A DNA stretch of 64,000 nt from Sphingomonas sp. 67-36 (lineage in GTDB: Bacteria; Pseudomonadota; Alphaproteobacteria; Sphingomonadales; Sphingomonadaceae). The translations under genes and the position numbers were made by a program. The DNA lies in the NCBI GenBank assembly GCA_001897375.1, contig MKSU01000010.1, positions 62,001 to 126,000 on the forward strand, written 5' to 3'. Positions 5,269 to 46,213 of the stretch are shown piece after piece; positions within the stretch are counted from its first letter, which is position 1; each line of letters begins with the position of its first letter. Below the pieces are notes generated by a model. That model was not told the DNA's origin. It made no database searches and saw nothing but the letters and a program-made list of their open reading frames with translations.

Positions 5269-6213
5269 ATGCGCGCGGCGATCGTTGACGGTAAGGGCGA
5301 GGTTCCCCGGTTCGGTGATTTTGAGCTGCCGGTCGCGGGCCCGGGCGAAACGTTCGTCAACGTCACGGCGTCCGCGCTCAGCCAGCTGACCCGGGGCCGC
5401 GCTTCAGGAGCGCATTACAGCTCCGGTGCGATTTATCCTTTCATTCCCGGGGTCGATGGGGTCGGCCGCACGACCGATGGTCGTCGCATCTACTTCGTCC
5501 TTCCGCGATCGCCTTTCGGGGCGATGGCGGAGCACACCGTCGTCCCCGACGGTCACTGGTTCGAACTGCCCGACGGGATCGACGACAAAAGAGCCGCGGT
5601 CATCGCAAATCCGGCAATGTCGTCGTGGGCGGCGCTGACGGAGCGGGCTCGCATCCAGCCCGGCGAGACCGTATTGGTGAATGGCGCAACCGGCGCGTCC
5701 GGGTCACTGGCGGTCCGGATCGCTCGCCATCTGGGTGCCGGAAAAGTCATTGCGACCGGGCGCAACGCAGAACGGCTTTCCCTATTGAATGCGGACGCGG
5801 CGATCGTTCTCGGCGATGAACCCGATCAGTTCGAGCGGGATATGTCGGCCCACTTCGTCGAGGGCGTCGATATCGTGCTCGACTATCTTTGGGGGCCGAG
5901 TGCGCGCAGTCTTCTGATCGCAGGCGCGAAGGCTGCGCCCGATGGCGCGGCGATCCGGTTCGTGCAGATCGGGTCGGTCAGCGGCGGCGAGGTGGCGATC
6001 CCCGCAGCCGTGCTACGCTCGTCTGCGATCGAGATGATCGGAAGCGGCATCGGCAGCGTGCCGTTCGATCGGCTGCTCGCCGCCGTCGAAGGCGCAATAT
6101 CAGTCGCCGAGCAGATCGGACTGGCCCTCGACTATACGGCGATCCCGCTCGACGATGTTACCCGCGGCTGGACTGTAGCCGGTGAGGCGCGGACGGTATT
6201 CGTGGTCCGCTAG
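5269..6213 (+). CDS. Zinc-independent MDR/quinone-oxidoreductase-like dehydrogenase
   Basis: 314 aa medium-chain dehydrogenase/reductase. It has an N-terminal GroES-like domain (to about residue 115) and a Rossmann domain with VLVNGATGASGSLAVRIARH binding NAD(P)H. The GHE and cysteine zinc-ligand signatures of true alcohol dehydrogenases are not visible, which favours a quinone-reductase or enoyl-reductase type. Start ATG with AAGGG upstream. It is divergent from the MarR regulator and probably controlled by it. Substrate unknown. Confidence 0.85.
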   Translation: MRAAIVDGKGEVPRFGDFELPVAGPGETFVNVTASALSQLTRGRASGAHYSSGAIYPFIPGVDGVGRTTDGRRIYFVLPRSPFGAMAEHTVVPDGHWFELPDGIDDKRAAVIANPAMSSWAALTERARIQPGETVLVNGATGASGSLAVRIARHLGAGKVIATGRNAERLSLLNADAAIVLGDEPDQFERDMSAHFVEGVDIVLDYLWGPSARSLLIAGAKAAPDGAAIRFVQIGSVSGGEVAIPAAVLRSSAIEMIGSGIGSVPFDRLLAAVEGAISVAEQIGLALDYTAIPLDDVTRGWTVAGEARTVFVVR

Positions 6214-6412
6214 GCGCCTCATCCTAGTTGTTCAGCCAGCTTTTGGACGACCCCGAAAGCCGTCATTCTTATCAGGCTGGCTAGTCGACAGTGAGCGATC
6301 AACACGGAACTTTGCAGTCATTCCCGGCAGGCGGCATGTGAACTCTCTTATAAGGGGCCGCCATTCGCCGGTAACGAATCGGCCGGCATCGTGACATGCG
6401 TGCGCGGCCGTC

Positions 6413-7081
6413 TCAGGCTTCCGGCGCGGGGCGGGCGGCGGTGTCGGGCAACAGCACCTCGATCTCGACCCGGCGGTTGCGGGCGCGTCCTTCCGGGTCG
6501 TCGCTGCCGTCGGCATGCGCATTGGGCGCGATGGGCCTGCGCTCGCCCAGCGCGATCACGTCGATCCGGGCCCGGCTGACGCCGTTCTTCACGAGATAAT
6601 CGCGCACCGCCTCGGCCATGCGGCGGGAGACGATCAGGTTGGCGCTGTCGCTCCCGCGCGAATCCGTGTTGCCGCGCAGGATGATGCGCCCTCCGGCGGC
6701 GGTGACCGGCTGATGGAGGAGATCGTCCAGCGTTCGCCGGCCCGTATCGTCCAGCACCGTGCCGGACGCCCCGAACGCGATGGTGCGCGTGACGGGTTCG
6801 AGCGGCGGCGGGGCTGGTTCGGGGGGCGCCACGTCAGGCCGGAGAATGGATTTCGTCTCACCGCCCGAGGCATTGTCCGGCGCCTGAGTGTTCGTGCTGT
6901 CGTCCAGCGAAGTGGTGGGCGTCGCGGCTCCGGTCGATCGGGCCGTTTCGGGGGTGGGCGCCATGCCGTTGGCTTCGGCGGGCGCGGCGCGATTGGCGGG
7001 AACCTCGCCCTGCTGCTGGCACGCCGCCACGCCCAGACACAGCGGGATCAGGCCCGTCGCCCATGCGGCGCTTTTCCTCAC
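6413..7081 (-). CDS. OmpA/Pal-like outer-membrane lipoprotein
   Basis: 222 aa from a GTG at 7081 whose last two bases overlap the stop of the antiporter gene (GTGA), with GGAGGAGA upstream. The N-terminus is a lipoprotein signal ending in VAAC. A low-complexity Ala/Pro/Thr linker follows, then a C-terminal OmpA domain (residues about 110-215) with the peptidoglycan-binding TDSRGSDSANLIVSRRMAE and ALGERRPIAPN motifs. It likely ties the outer membrane to peptidoglycan. A longer open frame upstream runs inside the antiporter gene and is not coding. Confidence 0.87.
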   Translation of the reverse strand: MRKSAAWATGLIPLCLGVAACQQQGEVPANRAAPAEANGMAPTPETARSTGAATPTTSLDDSTNTQAPDNASGGETKSILRPDVAPPEPAPPPLEPVTRTIAFGASGTVLDDTGRRTLDDLLHQPVTAAGGRIILRGNTDSRGSDSANLIVSRRMAEAVRDYLVKNGVSRARIDVIALGERRPIAPNAHADGSDDPEGRARNRRVEIEVLLPDTAARPAPEA

Positions 7082-8922
7082 GACATCTCCTCCGTTCTTT
7101 TCTTCAGCCGCTGCTCCGGGCTGCGGTTCGCGTCGGGCGGCCCATAGGACAGGATCGTATCCCCGATCTGCGGCGTCGGGCGCGAGGCGTGGGTGAAGAA
7201 GTTGAGCGATCCGCCCTTCCGCACCAGCAGCAGCAGGTCGGCCTCTTCCGGCAGATCGGCGCGCGCCGTCTCGAAATCGAACTGCTCGCTGATCCGCGTC
7301 TTGCGGAACGACCAGCCGGCGCGCTCGCGGTCCAGCAGCTCCTCCACCCCGAGGCCGGAAGTGAACATCGCGCGGCCGCGCAGGCTGTCCGGCAACGCGC
7401 GGGCGTCGTCCTCGCTCGCGTCGCCGAGCTGATAGACCTTGTCGCGCCCGATCTCCGGCGCGAACTCGCTGCACACCAGCGCGTTATAGGCTTCGTTGTC
7501 GGTGGTCGCGGCCAGCACCTCGAACTGCGTCATGTCGAGCTGGTCCTCGGTCGCCTCCGCGAGGATCTCGCCGTGATAGGTCGGGATGCCCGCCTGCCGC
7601 GCCGCCGCCAGCCGGTTCCAGCTCGTGTCGGCGATCGTCACCGGCACCTCGAGCTGCCGCAGGTGCTCGGCCAGCGACAGGCTCCACGGCGTGCTGCCGA
7701 CGATCAGCAGCCCGCGCTGCGCGGAGCCGGTCACCTTGAGCAGGCGCGCGACCGGGCCGATCGTGAAACCGTGCGCGACGATCGTGGCCACCACCACCGC
7801 GAACGACAGCGTGACGAGGATCGAGCCGTCGCCATAGCCCAGATGGCTGAGCCGCAGCGCGAACAGGCCGGAGATCGCGACCGCGACGATGCCGCGCGGC
7901 GCGACCCAGCCGATCAGCAGCCGTTCCCTCCACGGCACCGGGCTGAAGGCGAGGCTGAGGAAGACGGTCGCGGGCCGCACGAGGAACAGCAGCGCGAGCA
8001 GGAAGGCGAGGAACCGCCACTCGAACTGCTGCAGGAACGCGAAGTTCAGCGAGGCGGAGAGCAGGACGAAGACGCCCGACACGAGCAGGACGGTCACATT
8101 CTCCTTGAACGGATGGATGTCGCGCAGCGAGTTCAGCCGCATGTTGGCGAGCGCAACCCCCATCACCGTCACCGCCAGCAGCCCGGTCTCGTTCTGGATC
8201 ATGTTCGACAGCACGAACACACCGATCACCGTCACCAGCAGCACCGGCGCCTTGAGATATTCGGGCACATAGCCACGCGGGAAGGCCCAGCCGACGATCC
8301 GCGCGACGACCCAGCCCAGCAGGCCCGCCACCACCGCCGCCGCGACCAGCGAGACGATGACGCTGCCGAACGTCCCGCCCGCCGCCGAGCGACGAAGATA
8401 TTCATAGGTGATGAGGCCGCACAGCGCGCCGAACGGATCGTTGACGATCGCTTCCCACTTCAGGATGGCGCGCGGGCGCGGCGCGATGTTGCTCTGTCGC
8501 AGCAACGGGATGACGACGGTCGGCCCCGTCACCACCAGGATGCCGCCGAACAGGATGGCGACCGGCCAGACCAGGCCCGCCACATAGTAACAGGCCAGCG
8601 CGCCGAGCACCCAGCCGACCGGCACGCCGAGCAGCACCAGCCGGGTGACGGCGCCGTCGGTTCGGCGCAATTCCCGGAAGTTGAGGCTCAGGCCGCCCTC
8701 GAACAGGATGATGGCCACGGCGATCGACACCATCGGCTCCAGCAGCGCGCCGAACGTGTGCTGGGGATTGATGAGGCCGATCACCGGCCCCGCGATCACG
8801 CCGGCCGCGAGCATCAGCGCGATCGCCGGCCAGCCCGTGCGCCATGCGATCCACTGCGCCCCGATCCCGAGCAGGCCGATGAGCGCGATGACCGCCGATT
8901 GCTCTCCGATCGGGTTCAGCAT
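7078..8922 (-). CDS. Cation:proton antiporter (CPA1/NhaP type) with TrkA-N-like C-terminus
   Basis: 614 aa inner-membrane transporter. Roughly the first 400 residues form 12-13 hydrophobic helices with antiporter core features (IILFEGGLSLNFRELRR, VVTGPTVVIPLLRQ, KWEAIVNDPFGAL with the conserved ND). The soluble C-terminus contains a TrkA-N-like nucleotide-binding segment (GLLIVGSTPWSLSLAEHLRQ) followed by a TrkA-C-like region. It would exchange Na+ or K+ for H+ in pH and ion homeostasis, with nucleotide gating. It is translationally coupled to the OmpA lipoprotein downstream. Confidence 0.88.
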   Translation of the reverse strand: MLNPIGEQSAVIALIGLLGIGAQWIAWRTGWPAIALMLAAGVIAGPVIGLINPQHTFGALLEPMVSIAVAIILFEGGLSLNFRELRRTDGAVTRLVLLGVPVGWVLGALACYYVAGLVWPVAILFGGILVVTGPTVVIPLLRQSNIAPRPRAILKWEAIVNDPFGALCGLITYEYLRRSAAGGTFGSVIVSLVAAAVVAGLLGWVVARIVGWAFPRGYVPEYLKAPVLLVTVIGVFVLSNMIQNETGLLAVTVMGVALANMRLNSLRDIHPFKENVTVLLVSGVFVLLSASLNFAFLQQFEWRFLAFLLALLFLVRPATVFLSLAFSPVPWRERLLIGWVAPRGIVAVAISGLFALRLSHLGYGDGSILVTLSFAVVVATIVAHGFTIGPVARLLKVTGSAQRGLLIVGSTPWSLSLAEHLRQLEVPVTIADTSWNRLAAARQAGIPTYHGEILAEATEDQLDMTQFEVLAATTDNEAYNALVCSEFAPEIGRDKVYQLGDASEDDARALPDSLRGRAMFTSGLGVEELLDRERAGWSFRKTRISEQFDFETARADLPEEADLLLLVRKGGSLNFFTHASRPTPQIGDTILSYGPPDANRSPEQRLKKRTEEMS

Positions 8923-9190
8923 CGCCCCATGCTAGCCGCGCGGCATGGATGCCCGCAACCGCGTCGGGCGCTTCGGCCTATCATTAACGGCAACAAGGCG
9001 CCCCAATGTCGGCCGTTCCGGCCTTCAACACCATTTCCTGAAACCGGGCAGTCTGCTTTTTCAGGCGAGAGAGGACCGGCAGCGTTCGGCAGGGTCGAGT
9101 TCGGGTGGCTTGCCGGCCGTTCGCTTGTCACACTGGCCATCGACCAACCGCGAACGGGGCCACCGTTGGGAGTAACGGGCGCGCGCTTCA

Positions 9191-9540
9191 TCACCTGAGC
9201 TTCCGGACGAGAAGCTTCGCGATAGATGCGTCCAGTTCCTGTCTGCTCCAGGAGTGCCGGCCGCCGGGCGTCACGGGGTAGGGCAAGGTTCCGCGATAAA
9301 CCTCGCGTATGAACGCCGACTCCGGGGGAGATCGAGATACGCGGAGACGACCCGCTGGCGCATCAGCTCCGGCCAATCGCGAAAGCGGAGCGCAATCTCG
9401 ATAACCGGAGGCGGCGGCTCGCCTTCGGGCACCTTGAAACCAACAACGCCCGCGATCGTGGCCGCCGCTTCCTCGCCCTTCTCGTTCAGGACGAGGTGCC
9501 GGACCTCCTTGATACGGATGAAGCCCTTTCCATGTTCCAT
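9191..9540 (-). pseudogene. Hypothetical protein split by a one-base frameshift
   Basis: The first frame (from ATG 9540) encodes MEHGKGFIRIKEVRHL to about AYLDLP. Coding character then moves to another frame that reads ESAFIREVYRGTLPYP and ends at 9191 with IAKLLVRKLR. The switch falls at a run of five G on the + strand (9324-9328); one extra base there would restore a protein of about 115 aa. I do not recognise the family. The lesion may be a real mutation or a homopolymer miscall. Confidence 0.55.
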
Positions 9541-9607
9541 GCGCTTCGCATAACAGTCCGCCACGCGTGCCGCCGCGCTCAAGGTTCGAGTCGTGCGCCC
9601 CTCGCGG

Positions 9608-10027
9608 CTATTTGCCGAGCTGCCCGCGCATCGCCCCTTTCGGATATTTCGCCGTGTGGACGTTTACGTAGTAGTTGGATGGCTCTGCGAGGATCGCTGC
9701 CAGGGTATCAGCAGGGGCGGTGGCGCAGCCTTTGGACGAACCCTGGGCTGGCGGATCGAGCGGCACGACCACCGGGCCGGCTACCCCGGCCGCACCTTTG
9801 TGGACATGCGCCATGGTCGGCGTGTCCGTTCCGGTGGCGGACAGTTCGTAACAGAGCTGACCCTTGGCGGTATCAATGGTGACGCTCGCCGTACCGTGGC
9901 CGGCGGCTGGCGCAGGCGGCACCTCGGCGGGGCCGGAAAGCATTGTCCTGAAAGCAACTGGTCCGGCAGCAAGTGCAGGACCTCCAAAAAATGCCATGCA
10001 AGCAATGGCGGGAAGGGACATCCTCAT
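9608..10027 (-). CDS. Exported CHRD domain protein
   Basis: 139 aa with a Sec signal peptide (about residues 1-20, cleavage near ALAA). The single CHRD (chordin-type) domain contains LSGPAEVPPAPAAGHGTA, MAHVHKGAAGVAGPVVV and KGAMRGQL, with the characteristic H-x-H. Bacterial CHRD proteins are periplasmic or secreted and of unknown biochemical role. RBS GGAGAACG precedes the ATG. Single-gene unit. Confidence 0.88.
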   Translation of the reverse strand: MRMSLPAIACMAFFGGPALAAGPVAFRTMLSGPAEVPPAPAAGHGTASVTIDTAKGQLCYELSATGTDTPTMAHVHKGAAGVAGPVVVPLDPPAQGSSKGCATAPADTLAAILAEPSNYYVNVHTAKYPKGAMRGQLGK

Positions 10028-10339
10028 CGACGTTCTCCTGATCCAGCGCGTGCTATACGCGTAGATGCAGGGTCGGCCTGTCGAGGATAAAGGTCAATCA
10101 GAGAGTCCTCATAAACCTTGGAGAGGCGGAAGTCTTTGGCGCGGCAGCTGGTCGCGGTCGCTGTCATGATCCCGGCAAGGGAGAGAGCCGGCAGGAGAAC
10201 GCTGCTTCGCAGCGTTTGAACGGCCTTGAAGGTGGGCAACCATATGGTCAAATCGGTAGTCAGGCCCGGCAGCGCTTCAGGGGTAGGGCCCGCGCCTGCT
10301 GAGAGAAGCCGATGGCAAGGGCGATCCCGATATCCCGCA
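10028..10339. other. Intergenic stretch of 312 bp
   Basis: Lies between the CHRD gene start and the TetR gene stop, so it should hold the CHRD promoter. A 75-codon frame on the minus strand (10024-10251) has no recognisable domain or convincing ribosome binding site and is not called. No repeat or RNA structure stood out. Confidence 0.5.
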
Positions 10340-10927
10340 TCAATCCGCCGTCAGCATCGTCAGCACGCTATCGACGATCAGGCGGAGCTTGTGCGGGGTG
10401 GACGGCATTCGGCGGACGACGACGTGGTGGGTCATCAGTCCGACATAGGAATCGAAGGCGAAATGCAGGCGATCCTGATCCGCGTCCGGCGCGATCTGGC
10501 GGAACAGGGCCAGGAAATACTCGCGCTCCCCCTGCGCATAGCGTTCGGTGATGTCATGCAATTCCGGCGAGCGCGCGCTCGCCTCGATCAGGCTGAGCAC
10601 CGCGAGGCCGCGCTTGCCCGACAAATAATCGAGCGTTGCCCGCGCGTGCATCATCAGCGCCTCCACCGGAGGGACATCCGCCGCGATGACCGGCTCGACC
10701 GCGCGCGACGTCGCGAACAGGGTCGCGCCGACCAGTTCGGCCTTGTTCGAGAAGCGGCGGTAGATCGACATGCGCGTGCAGCCGGCGGCGGTCGCCACCG
10801 CCTCGAAAGTGAGGCCGGCATAGCCTTCACGCGCGATCACGTCCCATGTCGCGGCGTGGAGCGCCGCGTCGATCGCGTGCAGGCGCGGACGGCCACGCCC
10901 GCGTGTGGCAACTGCAACCCTCTCCAT
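10340..10927 (-). CDS. TetR/AcrR family transcriptional regulator
   Basis: 195 aa. The N-terminal helix-turn-helix is clear: GYAGLTFEAVATAAGCTRMS followed by IYRRFSNKAELV. The C-terminal ligand domain is all-helical and matches the TetR_C type with no assignable ligand. RBS AGAGGA lies just before the ATG. It is 74 bp downstream of the phosphoesterase gene on the same strand and may control that TonB-receptor unit, but no operator was identified. Confidence 0.87.
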   Translation of the reverse strand: MERVAVATRGRGRPRLHAIDAALHAATWDVIAREGYAGLTFEAVATAAGCTRMSIYRRFSNKAELVGATLFATSRAVEPVIAADVPPVEALMMHARATLDYLSGKRGLAVLSLIEASARSPELHDITERYAQGEREYFLALFRQIAPDADQDRLHFAFDSYVGLMTHHVVVRRMPSTPHKLRLIVDSVLTMLTAD

Positions 10928-11001
10928 GTTCCTCTTTCTCTTGTCGCCCTATCCGCCGGCCGATCCTCGAAGGCATCGGCCGGCAGGTCAATCGATGCCG
11001 A

Positions 11002-12270
11002 TCAGTTGCCGGGGCCGAACCGTTTGCGGAAGCCGGTCAGCTCGATCGTGTAATCGTCTTGCCCGTGGAATTGCTCGTCGCTCAGCTTCGGCTTCTCGGC
11101 GGCCTTGTACCACGCGGCATATTCCGCCGTGTCGCGGCTCTGCTTCTTGTAGTGCGTCGAATAGGTCTGGACGTGGATCACCGGCGTCTCGCCGGCCATG
11201 TCGAACCTCATCAGCCTGAGCCAGCCGTCGCCGATGCCCTCGCCCTGCTGCAACTTCGCGCCGGCGTCGATCGCGGTCTGGCGGCGATCCTGATAGTCGG
11301 CCAGCACCTGCCACACCTTGTTGCCGGCGCGATTGTCGTCGACGCGCAGAGCCTGCCCGTGCTCATGGCCGCACAGCACGAGGAAGATCTGGTCGTTCCG
11401 GCTGATGAGCTTGTCCCACATCATCTGCGGCGTGTTGTCGTCGGGATCGACGGCGTGATTGTCGATGATCGGGTTCGGCACGCGCTCGCCCTCGTTGGTG
11501 AGGTAATCGTGGGTCGAGATGATCGTCGGCAGGCCGGGATGCTCCGCGATCACCTTCGCCGCCCATTCAAGCGAGGCGTTGGGCGCATCGAAGCGCAGAC
11601 CGATGTGGAGGAAGGTGTAACCGCCCGCGGTGAAGATTTGCGCGCTGTCCGCGCCGCCGTCGTGGCTGGCGACATACCACGGCTTGCCCTTGAACAGCGG
11701 CTGGTCCGCGCCGAACAGCGAGCGGAAATTGTCGAGGCCCCCGGCGTGGAGCATGCCCAGGCTCGACATGTCCTTGAACACGGCGGCCGGCGGGTGGTTC
11801 GCGTCGGTCCACATCGCGTCATGGTCGTGGTTGCCCGGCACGACCGAGAGCGGCACCTTGCCCGCGATCAGCGCATAGCCATTGCGCGCGGTGGGGATCT
11901 CCACCGTCGTCACCTTCTCCGTCGGGGCGAACATCCGGTCCATGATCGGGTTCGCCACCCATTTGAAGCCGCGCGCCTCATGCTCCGGATCGATATGCTT
12001 CGTCTGGTGCTGCCACACGTCGCCCAGCGCGGTGACGAAGGCGATATCGCCGCCGTTCGATCTGGTGTGGTCGGCGATGAACTGCATCTGCTCGAGGAAC
12101 ATGCGGTCCGCGTCGAACTTGAAGCCCTCGGCGGTCTGGTGGGTGTAGTCGATATAGTTCTGCGTGTCGGGGATGGCGGCGATGGTGAAGCCGGTGTCCT
12201 TCGCGCAGGAGGGCGCGGACAGGCCGAGCGTCAGCGCGGTGGCGGCGAGCAGGGCGAAAGAGCGTTTCAT
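11002..12270 (-). CDS. Exported calcineurin-like metallophosphoesterase
   Basis: 422 aa with a Sec signal peptide (MKRSFALLAATALTLGLSAP). Metallophosphoesterase motifs appear in order: AAIPDTQNY (D-x-Q replacing the usual D-x-H, known in some subfamilies), TALGDVW, VPGNHDHD, ISTHDYL and CGHEHG. It would hydrolyse phosphate esters in the periplasm or outside the cell using two metal ions. The start at 12270 lies 20 bp behind the TonB receptor, so the two form one transcription unit. Substrate unknown. Confidence 0.88.
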   Translation of the reverse strand: MKRSFALLAATALTLGLSAPSCAKDTGFTIAAIPDTQNYIDYTHQTAEGFKFDADRMFLEQMQFIADHTRSNGGDIAFVTALGDVWQHQTKHIDPEHEARGFKWVANPIMDRMFAPTEKVTTVEIPTARNGYALIAGKVPLSVVPGNHDHDAMWTDANHPPAAVFKDMSSLGMLHAGGLDNFRSLFGADQPLFKGKPWYVASHDGGADSAQIFTAGGYTFLHIGLRFDAPNASLEWAAKVIAEHPGLPTIISTHDYLTNEGERVPNPIIDNHAVDPDDNTPQMMWDKLISRNDQIFLVLCGHEHGQALRVDDNRAGNKVWQVLADYQDRRQTAIDAGAKLQQGEGIGDGWLRLMRFDMAGETPVIHVQTYSTHYKKQSRDTAEYAAWYKAAEKPKLSDEQFHGQDDYTIELTGFRKRFGPGN

Positions 12271-33756: not shown

Positions 33757-34650
33757 TCAGGCGGCCTTCCTGAGCTTGAGCTTCTCGCGCACCGCCGCCG
33801 GCCCCATCACATTGACGTTCATCGCCTCGATGATCGCGCGGGCGCGGTCGACGAGATCGCCGTTCGACGCCTTCACCCCGCGCGAGAGATACAGGTTGTC
33901 CTCCAGCCCGACACGCACATTGCCGCCCGCCAGCACCGCCATCGCCACATACGGCAACTGGCGCGGCCCGATCGAGAAGGCGGAGAAGGTCGCGCCGGCG
34001 GGAAGCTGGGCGACCATCGCCATCGTCGTCATCGGATCGTCCGGCGCGCCATAGGGGATGCCCATGCAGAGCTGGATCATCAGCGGATCGTCGAGCAGCG
34101 CTTCCTTGACGAGATCCTTCACGAACACGAGGTGACCGAAATCGAACACCTCCAGCTCCGGCCGCACGCCAAGCTCCTGCACGCGCTTCGCCATCGTGCG
34201 CAGGTGCGTCGGCGTGTTGGTCATCACATAATCGCCGGCCGAGAAGTTCATCGTGCCGCAGTCGAGCGTGCAGATTTCCGGCAGCAGCTTCTCGACATGC
34301 ACCAGCCGCTCCAGCGGGCCGATCATGTCGGTGCCGACCGGATTGAGCGGCAGCGGCGTCTCGCCCGGCCCGAACACGACGTCGCCACCCATGCCGGCGG
34401 TGAGGTTGATGATCACGTCGGTGTCCGATTCGCGGATGCGTTCCACCACCTCGCGATAGAGCGACGGATCGCGGCTGGCGGCGCCGGTTTCGGGATCGCG
34501 GACATGAATATGCGCAATCGCCGCGCCCGCCTTCGCCGCCTCGATCGACGCCTCGGCGATCTGCTTCGGCGTGATCGGCAGGCCGGGATGCCGGCTGGCG
34601 GTATCGCCCGATCCCGTCACGGCGCAGGTGATGAACACGTCGCTTTGCAT
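33757..34650 (-). CDS. cdhC: BKACE family 3-dehydrocarnitine cleavage enzyme
   Basis: 297 aa. Zn-dependent beta-keto acid cleavage enzyme: [14 protein letters not shown] (metal-binding H-x-H), [25 protein letters not shown] and [14 protein letters not shown] are all present. Family members transfer acetyl-CoA onto beta-keto acids; beside carnitine dehydrogenase the expected reaction is 3-dehydrocarnitine plus acetyl-CoA to betainyl-CoA plus acetoacetate. Operon order BKACE, dehydrogenase-thioesterase, hydrolase matches cdhC-A-B-hocS. It is divergent from the AraC/GlxA regulator. Confidence 0.88.
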
Positions 34651-34722
34651 GTGGCCCTCTCGCTATCCTGCCGGGAAGTCTGCTTGACGCTTTCGCGATG
34701 CGTGGGGTGATAAGCGACATAA

Positions 34723-35715
34723 TTGGTGCATTTCACGACAAAAGATGCTTCAATCCGCGTCATGGCCGATGGCGTCGAGACGGTGGATTTCCTGCTGGTG
34801 GAGGGCTTTTCCGCGCTCGCCTTCTTCTCGGCGGTCGAGCCGCTGCGCGTCGCCAATCGCATCGCCGGGCGGACGGTCTTTGCGTGGCGGCTCCATTCGG
34901 AAAACGGCGAGCCGGTGCCGGCGTCGAGCGCGATGCGCTTCCCGGTCGATCGTCCGCTGGCGGCGATCGCCGCGCCGGGCACGCTGATCGTCTGTGCCGG
35001 CTTCCGGCCGGAGCGCGCGGTCGGGCGCGCCGGTCTCGCGGCGCTGCGCCGTTTCGCGCACGACGGCGGGCGGCTCGGCGCGCTCGATACCGGCGTCGAG
35101 GTGCTGGCGCGTGCCGGCGTCGCGGGGCGCGGGCCGGTCGCGATCCACTGGGAGGCGGCGCCCGAGTTCCGCGAGCGCTGGCCGGACATCCCCGTCACCG
35201 ACGCGCTCTACGCGATCGGCGAGCGCGTGTTCACCTGCGCCGGGGGGACGGCGGCGCTCGACATGATGCTGGAGCGGCTGGCGCTGAGCCACGGCCTCGC
35301 CTTCGCCCATGCGGTGTCGGAGCAGTTCATCCATGACCGCATCCGCCGCGCGGGCGAGGCGCAGCGGATGGCGCTCGGCCGGCGACTGGCGGTGCGCAAC
35401 CGCGCGGTGCTGGGGGTGATCACGGTGATGGAGGCGCATCTCGACGCGCCGCTCGCCTCCGCCGCGCTGGCGGCGCGCGCCGGGCTGTCGGTGCGGCAGG
35501 TCGAGCGGCTGTTCGACGCGCATGTCGGCATGTCGCCGCAGGATTATTACCGCCGGCTGCGCGTCGAGCGGGCGCGGGCGATGCTGGAAACCACCGAGAT
35601 GCGCGTGCTCGATGTGGCGCTGGCGACCGGGTTCGATTCAGCCTCCGCGCTTGCCCGTGTGTTTCGTCGGGCTTTCGGCATTAGCCCGGCAGCGGTGCGC
35701 AAGCCAGGGCGCTGA
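34723..35715 (+). CDS. GlxA/CdhR-like AraC family regulator
   Basis: 330 aa. N-terminal DJ-1/PfpI-like domain (FLLVEGFSALAFFSAVEPLR, CAGGTAALDMMLERL) and C-terminal AraC double HTH (LSVRQVERLFDAHVGMSP, VLDVALATGFDSASALARVF). This architecture is shared by GbdR and CdhR, which activate betaine and carnitine catabolism in Pseudomonas. Divergent from the cdhC-lcdH operon by 72 bp, so a CdhR-type role is likely. The start is uncertain: GTG 34723 or ATG 34762; neither has a strong ribosome binding site. Confidence 0.87.
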   Translation: MVHFTTKDASIRVMADGVETVDFLLVEGFSALAFFSAVEPLRVANRIAGRTVFAWRLHSENGEPVPASSAMRFPVDRPLAAIAAPGTLIVCAGFRPERAVGRAGLAALRRFAHDGGRLGALDTGVEVLARAGVAGRGPVAIHWEAAPEFRERWPDIPVTDALYAIGERVFTCAGGTAALDMMLERLALSHGLAFAHAVSEQFIHDRIRRAGEAQRMALGRRLAVRNRAVLGVITVMEAHLDAPLASAALAARAGLSVRQVERLFDAHVGMSPQDYYRRLRVERARAMLETTEMRVLDVALATGFDSASALARVFRRAFGISPAAVRKPGR

Positions 35716-35806
35716 ACCCCCTTGCGGGGCCAAAAAGCCGGCCCCAGCATCGCGTGCGTACATACGGGCGCGCGCCGAAGCCGCCCCGAAACAGGGAGGA
35801 GCGGCG

Positions 35807-37194
35807 ATGTCGAGCCAGTCATTGATCGAGGTGCGGTCGATCGATTTCGTGCCGCTGGAGGAGCGGCACGGCAAGGTGTGGCACCTGTGGCCGATCTGGT
35901 TCGCGGGCGACGCGCATCTCGCCACGCTCGCGACGGGCGCGCTGGGCATCGCGATGGGGATCAACCTGTTCTGGTCGATCGTCGCGATCGTCGGGGGATG
36001 CGCGCTCGGCACCTTCTTCATGGCGTTCCACGCGGCGCAGGGGCCGCAACTCGGCCTGCCGCAGATGATCCAGTCGCGGCCGCAGTTCGGGCACCTCGGC
36101 GCGCTGCTGGTGTGGGGCGTCGCGCTGGTCACCTATATCGGATATAACGCCTTCAATCAGGTGCTTGCCGGGCAGACGATGCGCGAGTTGGCGGCGCTGC
36201 CGGTGCATCCGACGATGGTGGTGTTCACGTTGGTCGGCCTGGGCGTGGCGCTGATCGGATGCGACCTGATCCATCGGGCGCAGCGCGTGCTGGCCTTCAC
36301 GCTGATCGTGATCCTCGCGGTGTTCAGCGTCGGCGCGATGCTGTTCGTGCCGCTGCCGGCGGGGCAGCTCGATCCGGGCAGGTTCCTGGTCGTGCCGTTC
36401 ATGATGCAGTTCTTCGCGGCGGCGGCCTATCAGCTCAGCTGGTCGATCTACGTTTCGGATTATTCGCGCTACCTGCCGCCCGACGTCGGCGTGCGATCGG
36501 CCTTCTGGTGGACCTTCGCCGGCGCGATGATCGGCGGGGTGTGGATGATGCTGGTCGGCGCAATCGCGGTCGCCGCCTTCCCGCACATGAACGTGATCGC
36601 CGCCGCGCGCGTGGTGGGCGATGCCATCATCTCCGGCTTCGGCACCGTGCTGCTGGTGGTCGCCTTCGCCAGCCTGATCACCGCCACCTCGCTCAATTTC
36701 TACGGCGCCTCGCTCACCCTGCTCAGCATCGCGGACGCGTTCCGCAAGGTGACGGCGTCGGTGAGGAACAGGGTGATCGCGCTGGTGATCGTGATGCTCG
36801 CATCATCGATCCTCTCCTTCTCCGCCTCGGGCAGTTTCATGCACCAATATGAGCTGCTGCTGTCGATCCTGATCTACCTGTTCACGCCGTGGACCGCGAT
36901 CAACCTCGTCGATTTCTACATCGTGCGGAAATGCCATTATTCGATTCCCGACATCTTCGATCCCGACGGCATCTACGGCCGGTGGAACGCGGCGGGGCTG
37001 ATCGCCTATCTGATCGGCTTCGCGGCGATGGTACCTTCAGCACGCATCTGTTCACCGGCACGGCGGCGCGGCTGATGGGCGGGGTGGACGTGTCGATGCT
37101 GATCGGCCTGCCGGTTTCCGCCTTCGCCTATCTGTGGCTGTGCCGGCGTGAAAAGACCGTGGAGTTCACGGAGGAGCGTGTCGCCCAACCATAA
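35807..37194 (+). pseudogene. NCS1 family permease with a C-terminal frameshift
   Basis: AGGGAGGA before ATG 35807. The first frame gives 422 aa of a 12-helix NCS1 (nucleobase/thiamine/allantoin-type, CodB-like) permease, but at about 37030-37034 coding shifts frame. GFAAMVP should continue as FSTHLFTGTAARLMGGV...FTEERVAQP to 37194, found one base out of phase. Adding one base restores about 462 aa. As read, the last helix is lost. Position after the carnitine genes hints at a quaternary-amine or related nitrogen substrate, without proof. Could be a sequencing error. Confidence 0.75.
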
Positions 37195-41448: not shown

Positions 41449-42051
41449 TTATTGGAGCGGTGCATCGATGCGGTAATGAATCGGCTTGAAGGAGCCGCCA
41501 TTGGAATCGGGCGCCGAGCAGGCGGTCAGCCCGATGATCAGGTCCATCTCCGCGCGGAAGGAGATATGATCGCCTGCCTTGCTGATCGGCGGCAACACCT
41601 TGAGTCGGCCGGAATTTGCGTCGACGGGCACATTCATGAAGCAATTGAACGCGATCGGGATGTGGTCCGGGCCAATGCCATAAGGCTGCAATGCTTCCGC
41701 CAGGTTGCCGAAGCATCCGCGATGCGGCGGCAGGTCGGGGTAGAAATGCAGGAAGGTGTCGACCGAGCAAGGCGTAAGCAGGAAATCGTGGCATCCCACG
41801 CTGTCGTCGACGATCGTCAGCATGACGCGCGAGCGGTTTGAGTAGAGTTTGTGCCCCACGGTGAGCCTGATCGTTTCGGCATAGTCGAGCGTGCGTCCCG
41901 AAGAGATAACCTCATCCGTATCTTCGGCATTATAGGCGAGCAGATCGGCGACCTGCTCGCCGCGTGGATCGATCACGGTCAGCGTGGCGCCTTGGGGGAG
42001 GCGGAAAGCGGTGCCGCTGCGCTCGGGGATGACCTGCACCTCGGGGGTCAT
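41449..42051 (-). CDS. DUF1989 (urea carboxylase-associated) family protein
   Basis: 200 aa. Features of the family: FRLPQGATLTVIDPRGEQVA, SRVMLTIVDDSVGCHDFLLTPC, CFGNLAEAL and FNCFMNVPVD, with conserved cysteines and histidine likely binding a metal. Characterised relatives include the CgdAB carboxyguanidine deiminase in guanidine breakdown and proteins next to urea carboxylases. Its ATG overlaps the stop of the upstream heme-hydroxylase-like gene (ATGA), implying work on a common nitrogenous substrate. Confidence 0.87.
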   Translation of the reverse strand: MTPEVQVIPERSGTAFRLPQGATLTVIDPRGEQVADLLAYNAEDTDEVISSGRTLDYAETIRLTVGHKLYSNRSRVMLTIVDDSVGCHDFLLTPCSVDTFLHFYPDLPPHRGCFGNLAEALQPYGIGPDHIPIAFNCFMNVPVDANSGRLKVLPPISKAGDHISFRAEMDLIIGLTACSAPDSNGGSFKPIHYRIDAPLQ

Positions 42052-42734
42052 TCGATCTTCCCGCGATATTCGAACGGCGCTTGCCAGTCTTGATCCACTA
42101 TCCGGCCCGAATATTGCCGCGCTTCGCTTGCCTCTCCGTGGCGGGCGAGCATCGGGTTGATGGAGCCGGCGAGCCGCTCGTCGCGGACGAGTATCTTCTT
42201 ACGCAACCCTTCATATTTGTCGGCGTCGCGCAGGCGCTCGAATTGGTCGTGCAGGTTGAACACCAGTGCGGGGTGTTCGAAACGGCGCGCCGGGCGACTG
42301 GCGTTCGGGTTCAGCCCGACGATAAAGAATGCCTCCCCGCCAAAGCTTAGCGAGAAATGCGGGTTCACGGGATCTGCGCTTACGCGTGCGTCATATTCCT
42401 GACCGCGCCATACGTCCTTGTCGCTGAGCGATTGCACGCGCGCCCACAACGCTGCCTCGAACTCCCGCTCGGTCAGGTCCGTGGGGCCGTCGAAGACCAC
42501 GGCATAACTTTGGAAGATAACGGGATCGGCGCGATAGTCCTGGGCGAACCGCAGCAACCCTTCATGAATCCTCAGGTCATCCCACGCGCTGTCGATACGG
42601 TCGCAGGCCAGAACGGTAAGGCGACCATGCGCGAGCGCAGATTTCGCTCCCACGCACGGGAACGATGCTGCCGCGACTTGCGCGAAAAGTTTTCGCTCAA
42701 GCTTTACCTGAGCTTCGTGGGTCCAATGAAACAT
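42048..42734 (-). CDS. YqcI/YcgG family heme-dependent N-hydroxylase-like protein
   Basis: 228 aa. Matches the YqcI/YcgG family: FPCVGAKSALAHGRL near the N-terminus, RVSADPVNPHFSLSFGGEAF, and the C-terminal NPMLARHGEASEARQYSGR. Studied members are GntA (hydroxylates a guanidino nitrogen in guanitoxin synthesis) and DcsA (L-arginine hydroxylation in D-cycloserine synthesis), both heme enzymes. Here it is coupled only to a DUF1989 gene, so a catabolic or detoxifying use of an N-hydroxylated guanidine or amine is as likely as biosynthesis. Confidence 0.82.
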   Translation of the reverse strand: MFHWTHEAQVKLERKLFAQVAAASFPCVGAKSALAHGRLTVLACDRIDSAWDDLRIHEGLLRFAQDYRADPVIFQSYAVVFDGPTDLTEREFEAALWARVQSLSDKDVWRGQEYDARVSADPVNPHFSLSFGGEAFFIVGLNPNASRPARRFEHPALVFNLHDQFERLRDADKYEGLRKKILVRDERLAGSINPMLARHGEASEARQYSGRIVDQDWQAPFEYRGKIE

Positions 42735-42945: not shown

Positions 42946-43199
42946 GAATCACCGAAAATTCGAAAGCGGTCCATCGGTAGTCGGTCCACCCCTTCGGTTC
43001 GGATCACGGTGAATCCGTGATCGCTTAACGCCAAGATTTTGCCGAGAGATTTTGCTGGTCCAGCCACTTGTCAAGTCATTGAAGATGGGGGAGGAGACGA
43101 GTCAGCATGTCGTCGGGTCATGGCTCGATAGGAGCGAGTTGCGTTGCATCGGGGAAGTGCAGTGTAGCTCGGTCGATTGCTTGGCAAAGGGGGAAGATA

Positions 43200-44912
43200 A
43201 TGCGGAAATTCACGACGCTCCTGAGTGCGACGGCTTTCTTGTCGCTTGCGGGATGCGGAGGAGGGGGCGGCACCTCCAGCGCCGGGAGCACGCCGGTCAA
43301 TCCGCCCGCAGCAACAAACAGCACGCTCACCAATCTCCAATACAGTCAATCCTTCGTCAATGACGCGACGACCGCCGCTGTCGCGCTGGACCTCACGACG
43401 AAGACCGGAATCTCAGGCGATACCGCTGTAAGCACATTGACCATCAGCTATGATGCAAAAAACCAGAGTTATACGGTGGCCGTGGATAGCCGCAGCCAGA
43501 CATTCGGGCAGGCCGACATCAAGAGCAATGACCCGGGCCAAACGCTTTACCAGAAGTCCGATGGCACCAATCGCGATTATCTGACGTTGGTGAAAATCCC
43601 CTATACCGGCACGCAGGCGACGCAATATGTCGGTTTGGGATATTGGCAGCGAAACGTTCTAGCCGATACTCGGCAGGATACCAATTACACGGCTTTTACT
43701 TATGGCTTGCCGACTGCGGCGGCGGCTGTCCCGCGAACCGGCATCGGTGTATTCGGTATCGATGCCTTTGGTTTTGCGTCGAAACCGGGGTCCGAGCCAA
43801 TCTCGTTTCAAGGGCATGGGCAATTTAGCGTCGATTTCGGCGCCGCGATTTTTACGGCTCAGGCTTACACGACCGAAACGGGCCTGGTGTCCGGAAGCTC
43901 CACGAGCGGGGGCGGGATCGACCTCCTCGCCGGCGGGCACCTGTCCTCTAACGGCACCTTCTCCGGCAGTGCCTTATATGAAAGTATGCTCGGCAGCGCT
44001 GGGGGTAGCCTGAGCGGGAGGTTCTACGGGCCATCGGCGGAGGAACTGGGCGCGAGCTTCAATGGGCAGGGAGCTGATGGTTTGACCGCGGTGGGGTCAT
44101 TCACAGGGCAGCGTGACAGCAGTGCCAAACCGGTAAACCTGACCCTTACCAACATGACACAGCAACAGCTTTTCTATACCCAATATGGCGGTAACTTGGT
44201 CGGCCAGTTGAACTGGCAGAATGCCGAAACCTTTACCGCATCGCCGCCTACCTCCGACCTTTATGGCGGGCAGTTCACTATCAACGACAAAGTGGCGAGC
44301 ACTAATCCGAACTTTATCACCTATCGTAAGACGTTCACCGGTACGATCGGTAGTGAGGATGTGGTGCTGGAGCTTTTTAAGCCCGGCGCCGGCAACAGTG
44401 AACTTGCACTGACCTACGCCAGCTTTGGTCACTGGTCGTCCAGTGGATCATATGGCAACAACCAGCCCAATGATCAATTTTTTACCTATGGACTGGATAC
44501 CCCCGCGCGCCTGCTCACCGGAAAAACGGGTTCAGGTCATTACGAAGGCGTCGCCTACGGAAACGCGATAAACGGGACCGGCGGACGCTATGACGTTCAC
44601 GGCTCGTCACGGTTTGACGTGAACTTCACAAGCCAGAGTTATACAGGCGGGATGACTATTTCCGGCACCGCCAGAGGTGACGGTAGCGCTATCGATTTCG
44701 GCAGTTTCGACTTCGCTGGCAAGATCGGTGGCTACAGTGCCGGAACCGTCGCGGATATATTGCGCAACGGGCAGGCGATTGGTCAACTCACCACTCGGTT
44801 TTACGGACCCGACGGAGATGAGATCGCCGGTCCGTTTTACGTTTTGACCCCTGCCGGTGGGCCGGCGGGCAATATCGGGATATCCGGCGTCGTGGCTGCC
44901 AAACGACAGTGA
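43200..44912 (+). CDS. TbpB-like surface lipoprotein (Slam substrate)
   Basis: 570 aa from ATG 43200 (GGGGGAAG upstream). Lipoprotein signal ending LSLAGC, then a poly-Gly linker as in surface lipoproteins. Two beta-barrel lobes end in the family signature, FYGPSAEELGASF (about residue 280) and FYGPDGDEIAGPF (about residue 545), as in transferrin-binding protein B and HpuA-like proteins. It is probably flipped to the cell surface by the Slam protein encoded next, whose start overlaps its stop. Ligand unknown; no partner TonB receptor is adjacent. Confidence 0.85.
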   Translation: MRKFTTLLSATAFLSLAGCGGGGGTSSAGSTPVNPPAATNSTLTNLQYSQSFVNDATTAAVALDLTTKTGISGDTAVSTLTISYDAKNQSYTVAVDSRSQTFGQADIKSNDPGQTLYQKSDGTNRDYLTLVKIPYTGTQATQYVGLGYWQRNVLADTRQDTNYTAFTYGLPTAAAAVPRTGIGVFGIDAFGFASKPGSEPISFQGHGQFSVDFGAAIFTAQAYTTETGLVSGSSTSGGGIDLLAGGHLSSNGTFSGSALYESMLGSAGGSLSGRFYGPSAEELGASFNGQGADGLTAVGSFTGQRDSSAKPVNLTLTNMTQQQLFYTQYGGNLVGQLNWQNAETFTASPPTSDLYGGQFTINDKVASTNPNFITYRKTFTGTIGSEDVVLELFKPGAGNSELALTYASFGHWSSSGSYGNNQPNDQFFTYGLDTPARLLTGKTGSGHYEGVAYGNAINGTGGRYDVHGSSRFDVNFTSQSYTGGMTISGTARGDGSAIDFGSFDFAGKIGGYSAGTVADILRNGQAIGQLTTRFYGPDGDEIAGPFYVLTPAGGPAGNIGISGVVAAKRQ

Positions 44913-46213
44913 TTGCCGCGATCGCGCTGGCGTTGACCGCCCCTGCACAGGAGCAGACCACGGCGGCGACACGGATGGAAAATCTGTCGGTGGTCGAGAT
45001 GTTTTCGCTCGCGGATCGTGCGCGTGCCGCAAACCGGATCGATGATGCGATCGGCTTCTATGACGCGCTGATGCATGATCCTAACCCTGATATCCGGGCG
45101 GAGGCGCGCTTTCGCAAGGGCATGATGCTCGCAAACGCACGGCGTTATCGGGAGGCAGCCGTCGCTTTTCGCAGCGTGCTCGATGAGAAGCCCGATGCCG
45201 CCCGCGCGCGGCTGGAGTTGGCGCGTATGCTCGCAGCGATCGGCGATGAAAGGGCTGCTCGACGCGAACTGAGACAAGTTCAGGCTAGTGGTCTGCCGTC
45301 GGATGTCGCTGCGACGGTTGGTCAATTCGACCAGATCCTGCGATCACGCAAGCGGGTGGGTGGATCATTCGAAGTCGCGCTGGCACCCGATTCGAACATT
45401 AACCGCGCAACGCAAGCGCGCTTGCTGGATACGATTATCGCGCCGGTCACCTTGTCCGATGACGCACGCGCTAAATCCGAGATGGGACTGCATGCCGCCG
45501 GCCAGATTTACGCCCGTGTCCCGCTTTCGGACTCGATCGCGTTGGTTCCGCGCGCTGCGGGATTGGCGAACCTGTACCGCCAGTCCGAATTCGACGATAT
45601 CTCAGCGTCCGCTCTCGTCGGTGTGGAATGGCGGCGCCAGCAGGACCGCTTCAGCCCATCGTTGGGACGGACGTGGCGATGGTATGGCAACAAACTTTAC
45701 GCGCGAACCGATGCTGCGGCGCTCGACTGGCTGCATGTTGTTGGAAAGCGTGCGCAACTTATCATCACCGCCAGCGTCAGCCGCGCTGATTATCTGCAAA
45801 ACGATCTCCAAGACGGGACGATCGCGGATCTGGGCATTTCGATCGAGCGAGCGGTGTCATCACGGGTGGGGGGCAGCATCAGTCTTTCCGTGACGCGGCA
45901 GTCGGCCCGAGATTCCGGTTATGCGACATGGGCGGGAGGGGTTACTGGCTTGGGTTGGCGCGAGATCGGTAAAACGACTCTGTTTCTTTCGGGCGGGTTA
46001 CGTCGAACGGAAGGAGACGCAGCGTTGTTTCTGTTTGGCGATCGGCGGCGGGAATGGCTTGTCACCGGGCGTGCGGGTGCAACCTTCCGCAACCTAAAGG
46101 TCGGAACCTTCGCGCCGTATGTGCGCGTAACCTACGAGCGGAACGCATCAAGTTTACAACTCTACGATTATTCACGATTGGCAACTGAGGCCGGGTTGAC
46201 GCGTGCTTTCTAA
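44909..46213 (+). CDS. Slam (surface lipoprotein assembly modulator) outer-membrane translocon
   Basis: 434 aa from a GTG overlapping the previous stop (GTGA). A short signal peptide (ALTAPAQ), an N-terminal periplasmic TPR region (residues about 25-140; AGRAR-like helices such as RFRKGMMLANARRYREAAVA), then a C-terminal DUF560 barrel opening with GGSFEVALAPDSNINRAT and ending in an aromatic residue (AF). Slam proteins move TbpB-type lipoproteins across the outer membrane. Pairing with the TbpB-like gene strongly supports the call. Confidence 0.85.
   Translation: MIAAIALALTAPAQEQTTAATRMENLSVVEMFSLADRARAANRIDDAIGFYDALMHDPNPDIRAEARFRKGMMLANARRYREAAVAFRSVLDEKPDAARARLELARMLAAIGDERAARRELRQVQASGLPSDVAATVGQFDQILRSRKRVGGSFEVALAPDSNINRATQARLLDTIIAPVTLSDDARAKSEMGLHAAGQIYARVPLSDSIALVPRAAGLANLYRQSEFDDISASALVGVEWRRQQDRFSPSLGRTWRWYGNKLYARTDAAALDWLHVVGKRAQLIITASVSRADYLQNDLQDGTIADLGISIERAVSSRVGGSISLSVTRQSARDSGYATWAGGVTGLGWREIGKTTLFLSGGLRRTEGDAALFLFGDRRREWLVTGRAGATFRNLKVGTFAPYVRVTYERNASSLQLYDYSRLATEAGLTRAF

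Follow-up and report, generated by a model that had tools for sequence, protein, structure and literature searches.

A 64,000-nucleotide stretch of the genome of Sphingomonas sp. 67-36 (contig MKSU01000010.1), referred to here in its entirety as the window, was analyzed for a pair of adjacent genes encoding a YqcI/YcgG-family protein (hereafter YqcI) and a DUF1989 protein. The elements of this locus are as follows.

42048..42734, minus strand: gene 1, a YqcI/YcgG-family protein of 228 amino acids, a predicted thiolate-heme N-oxygenase.
41449..42051, minus strand: gene 2, a DUF1989 protein of 200 amino acids, a predicted zinc (three-cysteine) enzyme of a YqcI-tied clade.
42048..42051, minus strand: an ATGA stop/start overlap of 4 bases in the sequence, a likely site of translational coupling.

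Gene 1 matched the Pfam family PF08892 (YqcI_YcgG) with an E value of 4.7e-52 (177.3 bits versus a cut-off of 27), and gene 2 matched PF09347 with an E value of 1.3e-57 (194.5 bits versus a cut-off of 27). These scores and the coordinates confirmed the original prediction of two open reading frames (ORFs) of these families forming an ATGA-coupled operon. Gene 1 also scored above the cut-off of the NCBIfam model NF041366, "GntA" (239.3 versus 145 bits), with a match spanning profile positions 18 to 232 of 232. Gene 2 fell below the cut-offs of the UAAP-type models TIGR03424 (107.2 versus 284.7 bits) and TIGR03425 (87.5 versus 205.95 bits) and of the trimethylamine N-oxide (TMAO) demethylase model NF053776 (73.8 versus 1100 bits). 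The genome containing the window (4.0 Mb, 32 contigs, 99.99% complete) had a single match each for PF08892 and PF09347, both at this locus; with one PF09347 match, no second DUF1989 subunit was found in this genome.

Co-occurrence of the two families, the test named in the original prediction, was scored in 298 sampled Sphingomonadaceae genomes, of which 113 contained YqcI and 136 contained DUF1989. DUF1989 was present in 111 of the 113 genomes with YqcI versus 25 of the 185 without it, a result clearly against chance (Fisher P = 4.7e-54, a value that is only indicative as the sampled species are related). The two genomes with YqcI and no DUF1989 were G054, which had a weaker match (E value of 1e-24), and G176, which is 70% complete. 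A DUF1989 gene was located directly 3′ of YqcI on the same strand in at least 107 of 124 YqcI places (98 from the DUF1989 places listed and nine from loci read separately), the remaining 17 including four that were not inspected (G085, G165, G058 and G102). Unpaired second copies of YqcI were detected in G008:C1, G187:C22, G213:C1 and G194:C1 (loci L192, L194, L195 and L196), each alongside a paired copy elsewhere in the genome. The partner was present only as a fragment upstream of YqcI in G060 and was separated from YqcI by ∼15 kb in G293 and ∼1.8 kb in G077. YqcI matches were partial or weak in G178:C11, G176, G054, G175 and, twice, G215; G178 also contained a DUF1989 gene without YqcI near a contig end (L201).

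A draw of 398 Pseudomonadota genomes contained 22 with YqcI (10 Sphingomonadaceae and 12 others) and 110 with DUF1989 (Fisher P = 9.8e-14 for the genome-level table). Comparison by eye of the coordinate lists placed DUF1989 directly 3′ of YqcI and on the same strand in all 22 of these genomes; the single unpaired place among 23 was a second copy in G444. An hmmsearch of the fetched loci concurred, detecting the partner in L113 to L133 and none in L134. Among named genomes, DUF1989 was present in 79 of 80 loci, these being the best 80 of 431 related places and nearly all titled sphingomonads; the exception, L053, is from a genome with a paired copy, L080. These results indicated that the pairing of YqcI and DUF1989 is real and beyond chance.

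The pair is conserved across phyla. A tblastn search with the window YqcI protein of 72,556 plasmid records matched 20, and DUF1989 adjoined YqcI in 14 of them: seven sphingomonad plasmids, Skermanella, three Comamonadaceae, Deinococcus ficus (Deinococcota), and Hymenobacter and Chryseobacterium (Bacteroidota). The plasmid regions inspected from two Streptomyces, Rahnella, one Pseudoalteromonas and the archaeon Haladaptatus yielded no DUF1989, and for a second Pseudoalteromonas plasmid no partner was present among the DUF1989 matches (E values up to 1e-20). The unpaired plasmid YqcI proteins were mostly, and not strictly, the more distant ones, as one Streptomyces protein had 41.6% identity versus 41.4% for the paired Deinococcus protein. 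The DUF1989 match in Hymenobacter was unannotated and in two pieces, and one Novosphingobium YqcI match was likewise split in two; hence, these copies may be broken. Across 23 diverse pairs, identities ranged from 35 to 79% for YqcI and from 48 to 88% for DUF1989 with a correlation (r) of 0.84, as expected for genes inherited together. Both genes were also observed in an unverified fecal phage record (L204, MT836826.1; 43% identity for YqcI and 50% for DUF1989), which may be a mislabelled bacterial contig. Separately, a distant YqcI gene on the Rahnella sikkimica plasmid (L138, positions 5956 to 11241) leads a different cassette, being followed by genes for a short-chain dehydrogenase/reductase, an unknown protein, a 2Fe-2S protein, a LysE exporter, a phenylalanine-tRNA-ligase-beta-related protein and a MOSC protein.

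In a comparison of 80 sphingomonad loci and the window, YqcI and DUF1989 were present in 81 and 80 regions, respectively, and the next gene-like clusters in no more than 33 of 81, a count that set aside other-frame ORFs overlying the pair. Across 25 diverse loci, of which 21 had the pair, no other family recurred at a fixed position, with the one exception of an EAL/GGDEF-type gene located 3 to 4 kb upstream in three loci, two of them from sister species. Annotated plasmid neighborhoods were mostly unlike one another. The pair is, therefore, the only constant element among the loci compared and the neighbors vary, in agreement with its original description as minimal. As no reductase recurs beside the pair, a general cellular reductase must serve YqcI. 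In a single case, on a Sphingomonas insulae plasmid (L148, positions 6361 to 6855), the DUF1989 gene shares its end with an overlapping nucleoside deaminase gene, which may encode a third enzyme.

Tight gene coupling with no further constant gene would also suit a damage control function, in which DUF1989 would eliminate a reactive compound that YqcI forms as product or by-product, with the main YqcI product leaving otherwise. This explanation appears decidedly improbable: the known DUF1989 enzymes are metabolic, and YqcI copies without a partner occur, though most of the copies read are in genomes that keep a paired one, which limits the test.

The NF041366 score favors the database label, by which gene 1 would be a genuine guanitoxin N-hydroxylase, GntA being the N-hydroxylase of the guanitoxin precursor. 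The scan covered 10 ORFs of the window, not the remaining genome, and showed no further guanitoxin- or cycloserine-named gene, which supports the original prediction on this point for those ORFs. Guanitoxin-named genes were also absent from the annotated plasmid neighborhoods read, for which the PLSDB gene tables are incomplete, and the constant partner is DUF1989 instead. A role in guanitoxin synthesis is, on this evidence, almost certainly the wrong explanation. The label "guanitoxin biosynthesis GntA" on this branch, whose usual neighbor is DUF1989, is probably a mislabelling, and such an automatic label without a sign of the pathway in the neighborhoods matters for toxin screening of genomes.

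YqcI was compared to AglA of argolaphos biosynthesis (PDB 9ub3 and others). In AglA, the heme is ligated by Cys44 and the substrate is held by Phe152 and Phe182, and the enzyme works with a separate PDR/VanB reductase (PMC12866846). An alignment was constructed from 142 paired and 6 unpaired YqcI sequences with AglA residues 21 to 186, duplicates and rows of fewer than 180 residues having been dropped; the AglA heme-propionate contacts Lys196 and Arg200 and loop L2 are outside this fragment. The heme-ligating cysteine (Cys44 of AglA, C47 of ChmN) was utilized as the family criterion and has the following counterpart in the window.

42654..42656, minus strand: codon of Cys27, the predicted heme thiolate ligand (AglA Cys44), a cysteine in 142/142 paired and 6/6 unpaired rows.

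Phe137 and Phe165, the equivalents of AglA Phe152 and Phe182, were kept in 140 and 142 of the 142 paired rows, respectively, and Arg151, equivalent to the heme-propionate contact Arg166, in 135. The window protein has Asn142 at a position that is histidine in 137 of the 142 rows. An AlphaFold model (pLDDT of 70.9; weak at residues 105 to 134 and 191 to 211) had AglA entries as its top structural matches, with 14 to 16% identity over the structural alignment, and YqcI is thus predicted to have the sandwich fold of AglA. Family, predicted fold and the conserved heme cysteine point to a cysteine-ligated heme N-oxygenase. The two proteins differ in setting, AglA being part of a phosphonopeptide pathway and the window YqcI of a two-gene operon.

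In order to place the DUF1989 partner, a tree was inferred from 35 unpaired domains and from a set of 158 paired domains, some of whose loci are counted twice, reduced at 80% identity to 45 representatives. The paired domains formed one side of a single branch with support of 99/96 that was present in 100% of 200 bootstrap trees, while tandem UAAP1/UAAP2-like subunits grouped elsewhere (100/99). The tandem pairs were recognized by position, and one by annotation; the tree has an arbitrary root and was built without a biochemically verified Cgd sequence. Three paired-type DUF1989 genes located apart from YqcI (L197, L198 and L201) were not in the tree and belong with the paired clade by profile score (289 to 297 bits). 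A tandem pair is present in addition to the YqcI-linked copy in G001, G014, G146 and G324.

CgdA and CgdB (UAAP1 and UAAP2), the two subunits of carboxyguanidine deiminase, are defined by descent from their common ancestor in a PF09347 tree (PMC11410670). As the window DUF1989 is outside the clade of tandem subunits, it appears to be neither CgdA nor CgdB by this definition. The window protein and these subunits have the PF09347 family in common, and the 3′ (UAAP2-like) tandem subunit has the same three cysteines as the window protein; CgdA and CgdB, however, are two subunits in a separate clade, whereas the window DUF1989 is single and scores well short of either TIGRFAM cut-off. These scores and the position of the clade weaken the link to carboxyguanidine deiminase drawn in the original prediction.

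The conserved residues of the paired clade in the window are as follows.

41767..41769, minus strand: codon of Cys95, predicted zinc ligand, in 45/45 paired rows; equivalent by motif spacing to C263 of TMAO demethylase.
41713..41715, minus strand: codon of Cys113, predicted zinc ligand, in 45/45 paired rows; equivalent to C279 of TMAO demethylase.
41518..41520, minus strand: codon of Cys178, predicted zinc ligand, in 44/45 paired rows, the other having a gap; equivalent to C343 of TMAO demethylase.
41881..41904, minus strand: codons 50 to 57 (SSGRTLDY), a paired-clade motif, with S50, G52 and D56 in 45/45 rows, R53 in 44/45 and Y57 in 43/45.

The zinc cysteines of TMAO demethylase (Tdm) are C263, C279 and C343 (PMC12560246), and the paired DUF1989 proteins keep all three of these zinc-type cysteines, for which a metal-binding role is predicted. 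In 10 tandem subunits of the 5′ type, the first cysteine was kept in two, the second in none and the third in seven, a loss in line with the inactive cognate subunit described for CgdAB (PMC11271267). The residues typical of the paired clade comprise S50-x-G52-R53-[TS]-x-D56-Y57 and a block around HDFLLTPCS; G52 and D56 are present too in an unpaired Clostridioides protein (L184). An AlphaFold model of the DUF1989 protein (pLDDT of 80.8) matched structures 3siy, 3oru and 3di4, all of the DUF1989 fold.

Five upstream patterns were tried and one stood out. The palindrome TTGAT-N4-ATCAA (at least 9 of 10 bases) was detected upstream of YqcI in 30 of 144 loci, versus a mean of 0.35 and a maximum of 1 in 20 block shuffles. 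At 8 of 10 bases, it was present in 38 of 150 loci, within 118 to 135 bases before the domain start, versus 0 to 3 loci in five control windows; the 38 loci are not 38 independent events, since related species share the site by descent. The location of the site is as follows.

Sphingomonad loci L040 to L110 and L148: palindrome ∼60 bases before the YqcI start codon.

In 8 of 37 site-bearing loci, a long co-directional upstream ORF ends 74 to 86 bases before the YqcI start, indicating that in these loci the site belongs to the pair. The palindrome, which resembles an FNR/FixK-type site, is present in part of the sphingomonads. Neither the window nor 112 of the 150 loci had it, and no perfect copy was found in the window genome, which has five CRP-type helix-turn-helix matches. 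Low-oxygen control would fit an O2-dependent oxygenase only if peroxide could serve it or low O2 were sufficient for its catalysis. A palindrome at a fixed upstream distance could indicate instead that the heme protein senses gas or redox state, or functions in the manner of a peroxidase, together with DUF1989 at low oxygen and without N-oxygenation. This reading seems very unlikely, given that the site is missing from the window and most loci and that the equivalents of the substrate-holding phenylalanines of AglA are kept in nearly all paired rows.

For the pair as a whole, we propose a self-contained two-enzyme pathway, a reading that we regard as evenly poised between right and wrong and within which we infer both activities, their order and the class of substrate. 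In the first step, the cysteine-ligated heme protein YqcI, fed by a general cellular reductase, would N-oxygenate a small nitrogenous molecule; guanidino compounds, for example arginine or one of its derivatives, are the most likely substrates. In the second step, DUF1989, without a second DUF1989 subunit, would break a C-N bond in this N-oxygenated product, either hydrolytically or through elimination, as suggested by known DUF1989 chemistry and the kept metal-type cysteines. The YqcI proteins AglA, GntA and ChmN oxygenate guanidine nitrogens (PMC10849742), GrbE of gramibactin biosynthesis is related to the arginine hydroxylases AglA, Mhr24 and DcsA (PMC11705231), and the known DUF1989 enzymes act on carboxyguanidine (PMC11410670) and on TMAO, an N-oxide (PMC12560246). 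The original suggestion of a pathway that oxidizes and deaminates is plausible in its chemical outline, and the separate position of the clade weakens the part that concerns a deiminase. The pair could serve to supply nitrogen, to make a small bioactive molecule or to dispose of an unwanted metabolite.

Several observations weigh against this two-step pathway. The AglA contacts Gln177 and Arg179 are replaced in YqcI by Asn160 (142/142 rows) and His162 (141/142), so the substrate is probably not that of AglA. As PMC12866846 counts six characterized members of the YqcI family only, "guanidino" may not hold for this branch. In DUF1989, His110, the equivalent of the proposed iron ligand H276 of Tdm, is retained by just 40 of the 45 paired rows. 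The existence of YqcI without a partner and of L197, L198 and L201 means that each protein may have a use alone. An FNR-type site in about a quarter of the loci is also odd for an O2-using enzyme.

The logic of the pair may be analogous to that of DcsA followed by DcsB in D-cycloserine biosynthesis or of trimethylamine oxidation followed by TMAO demethylase. In the former, N-hydroxyarginine is converted to hydroxyurea and ornithine. As in the logic proposed for the pair, a YqcI-family enzyme there precedes a hydrolase, DcsB being of another family than DUF1989; DcsA binds heme and its activity was not confirmed in vitro (PMC10849742). A specific form of the proposed pathway, sharing in its probability, would have free arginine or agmatine N-hydroxylated by YqcI and DUF1989 replacing the arginase-like DcsB, yielding hydroxyurea (or hydroxylamine) and ornithine (or citrulline). 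The characterized YqcI enzymes use arginine or its derivatives (PMC12866846, PMC10849742), and the window genome had no match to the ureohydrolase family PF00491 or the ADI family PF02274, so that no DcsB-type enzyme was found in it. Nothing in the sequence, however, fixes arginine as the substrate, and the genome has its own arginine breakdown route through succinylarginine dihydrolase (AstB); as AstB gives a normal exit, the main arginine route probably does not run through the pair. We consider this form fairly unlikely.

A second specific form, which likewise overlaps in probability with the two-step pathway, is N-oxidative dealkylation, with YqcI oxidizing an N-alkyl compound and DUF1989 releasing the alkyl group as an aldehyde. 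Tdm provides the model: it is a DUF1989 enzyme with an N-oxide as its substrate, and its DUF1989 domain has the same zinc-type cysteines as those kept in the paired proteins. The 200-amino-acid window protein matches PF09347 only and is without the GcvT domain of Tdm, two Tdm-like domains are on a branch apart from the paired clade, and no one-carbon gene family recurs beside the pair in the 25 diverse loci. Dealkylation would be a distinctly doubtful assignment. A further extension, which we regard as a long shot, is that the two proteins together correspond to nitric oxide synthase. Guanidino N-hydroxylation by the thiolate-heme enzyme would then be followed by cleavage of the product by the metal protein, releasing a small reactive nitrogen species (hydroxylamine, nitroxyl, nitric oxide or hydroxyurea being candidates) for use in signaling or as a stress chemical, and in some of the sphingomonads the process would be under the control of low oxygen.

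The pair is a new combination of known families. DUF1989 and YqcI were not joined in the passages on DUF1989 in the openly licensed literature searched, most subscription papers being outside this search, and the combinations YcgG with YcgI, YqcI with urea carboxylase-associated, and pre-guanitoxin with heme-dependent retrieved nothing from it. The original description of the pathway as undescribed holds as far as openly licensed papers show. With YqcI in nearly two fifths of the sampled Sphingomonadaceae genomes and DUF1989 in almost all of those, the pair may represent a common and undescribed part of nitrogen metabolism in bacteria. Besides its roles in carboxyguanidine deiminase and TMAO demethylase, DUF1989 may have a further one. 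A system of two enzymes and no further constant gene would be easy to test in one tube.

Two other regions of the window were noted. At positions 43107 to 46213, a TbpB-like gene resembling those for Slam-dependent lipoproteins (below the cut-off of that model) is followed by a Slam-like outer membrane gene. At positions 33757 to 37075, an AraC-type regulator resembling GbdR (below the cut-off) and an NCS1-type transporter are present next to a gene that seems to encode a beta-keto acid cleavage enzyme, perhaps for betaine or carnitine use.
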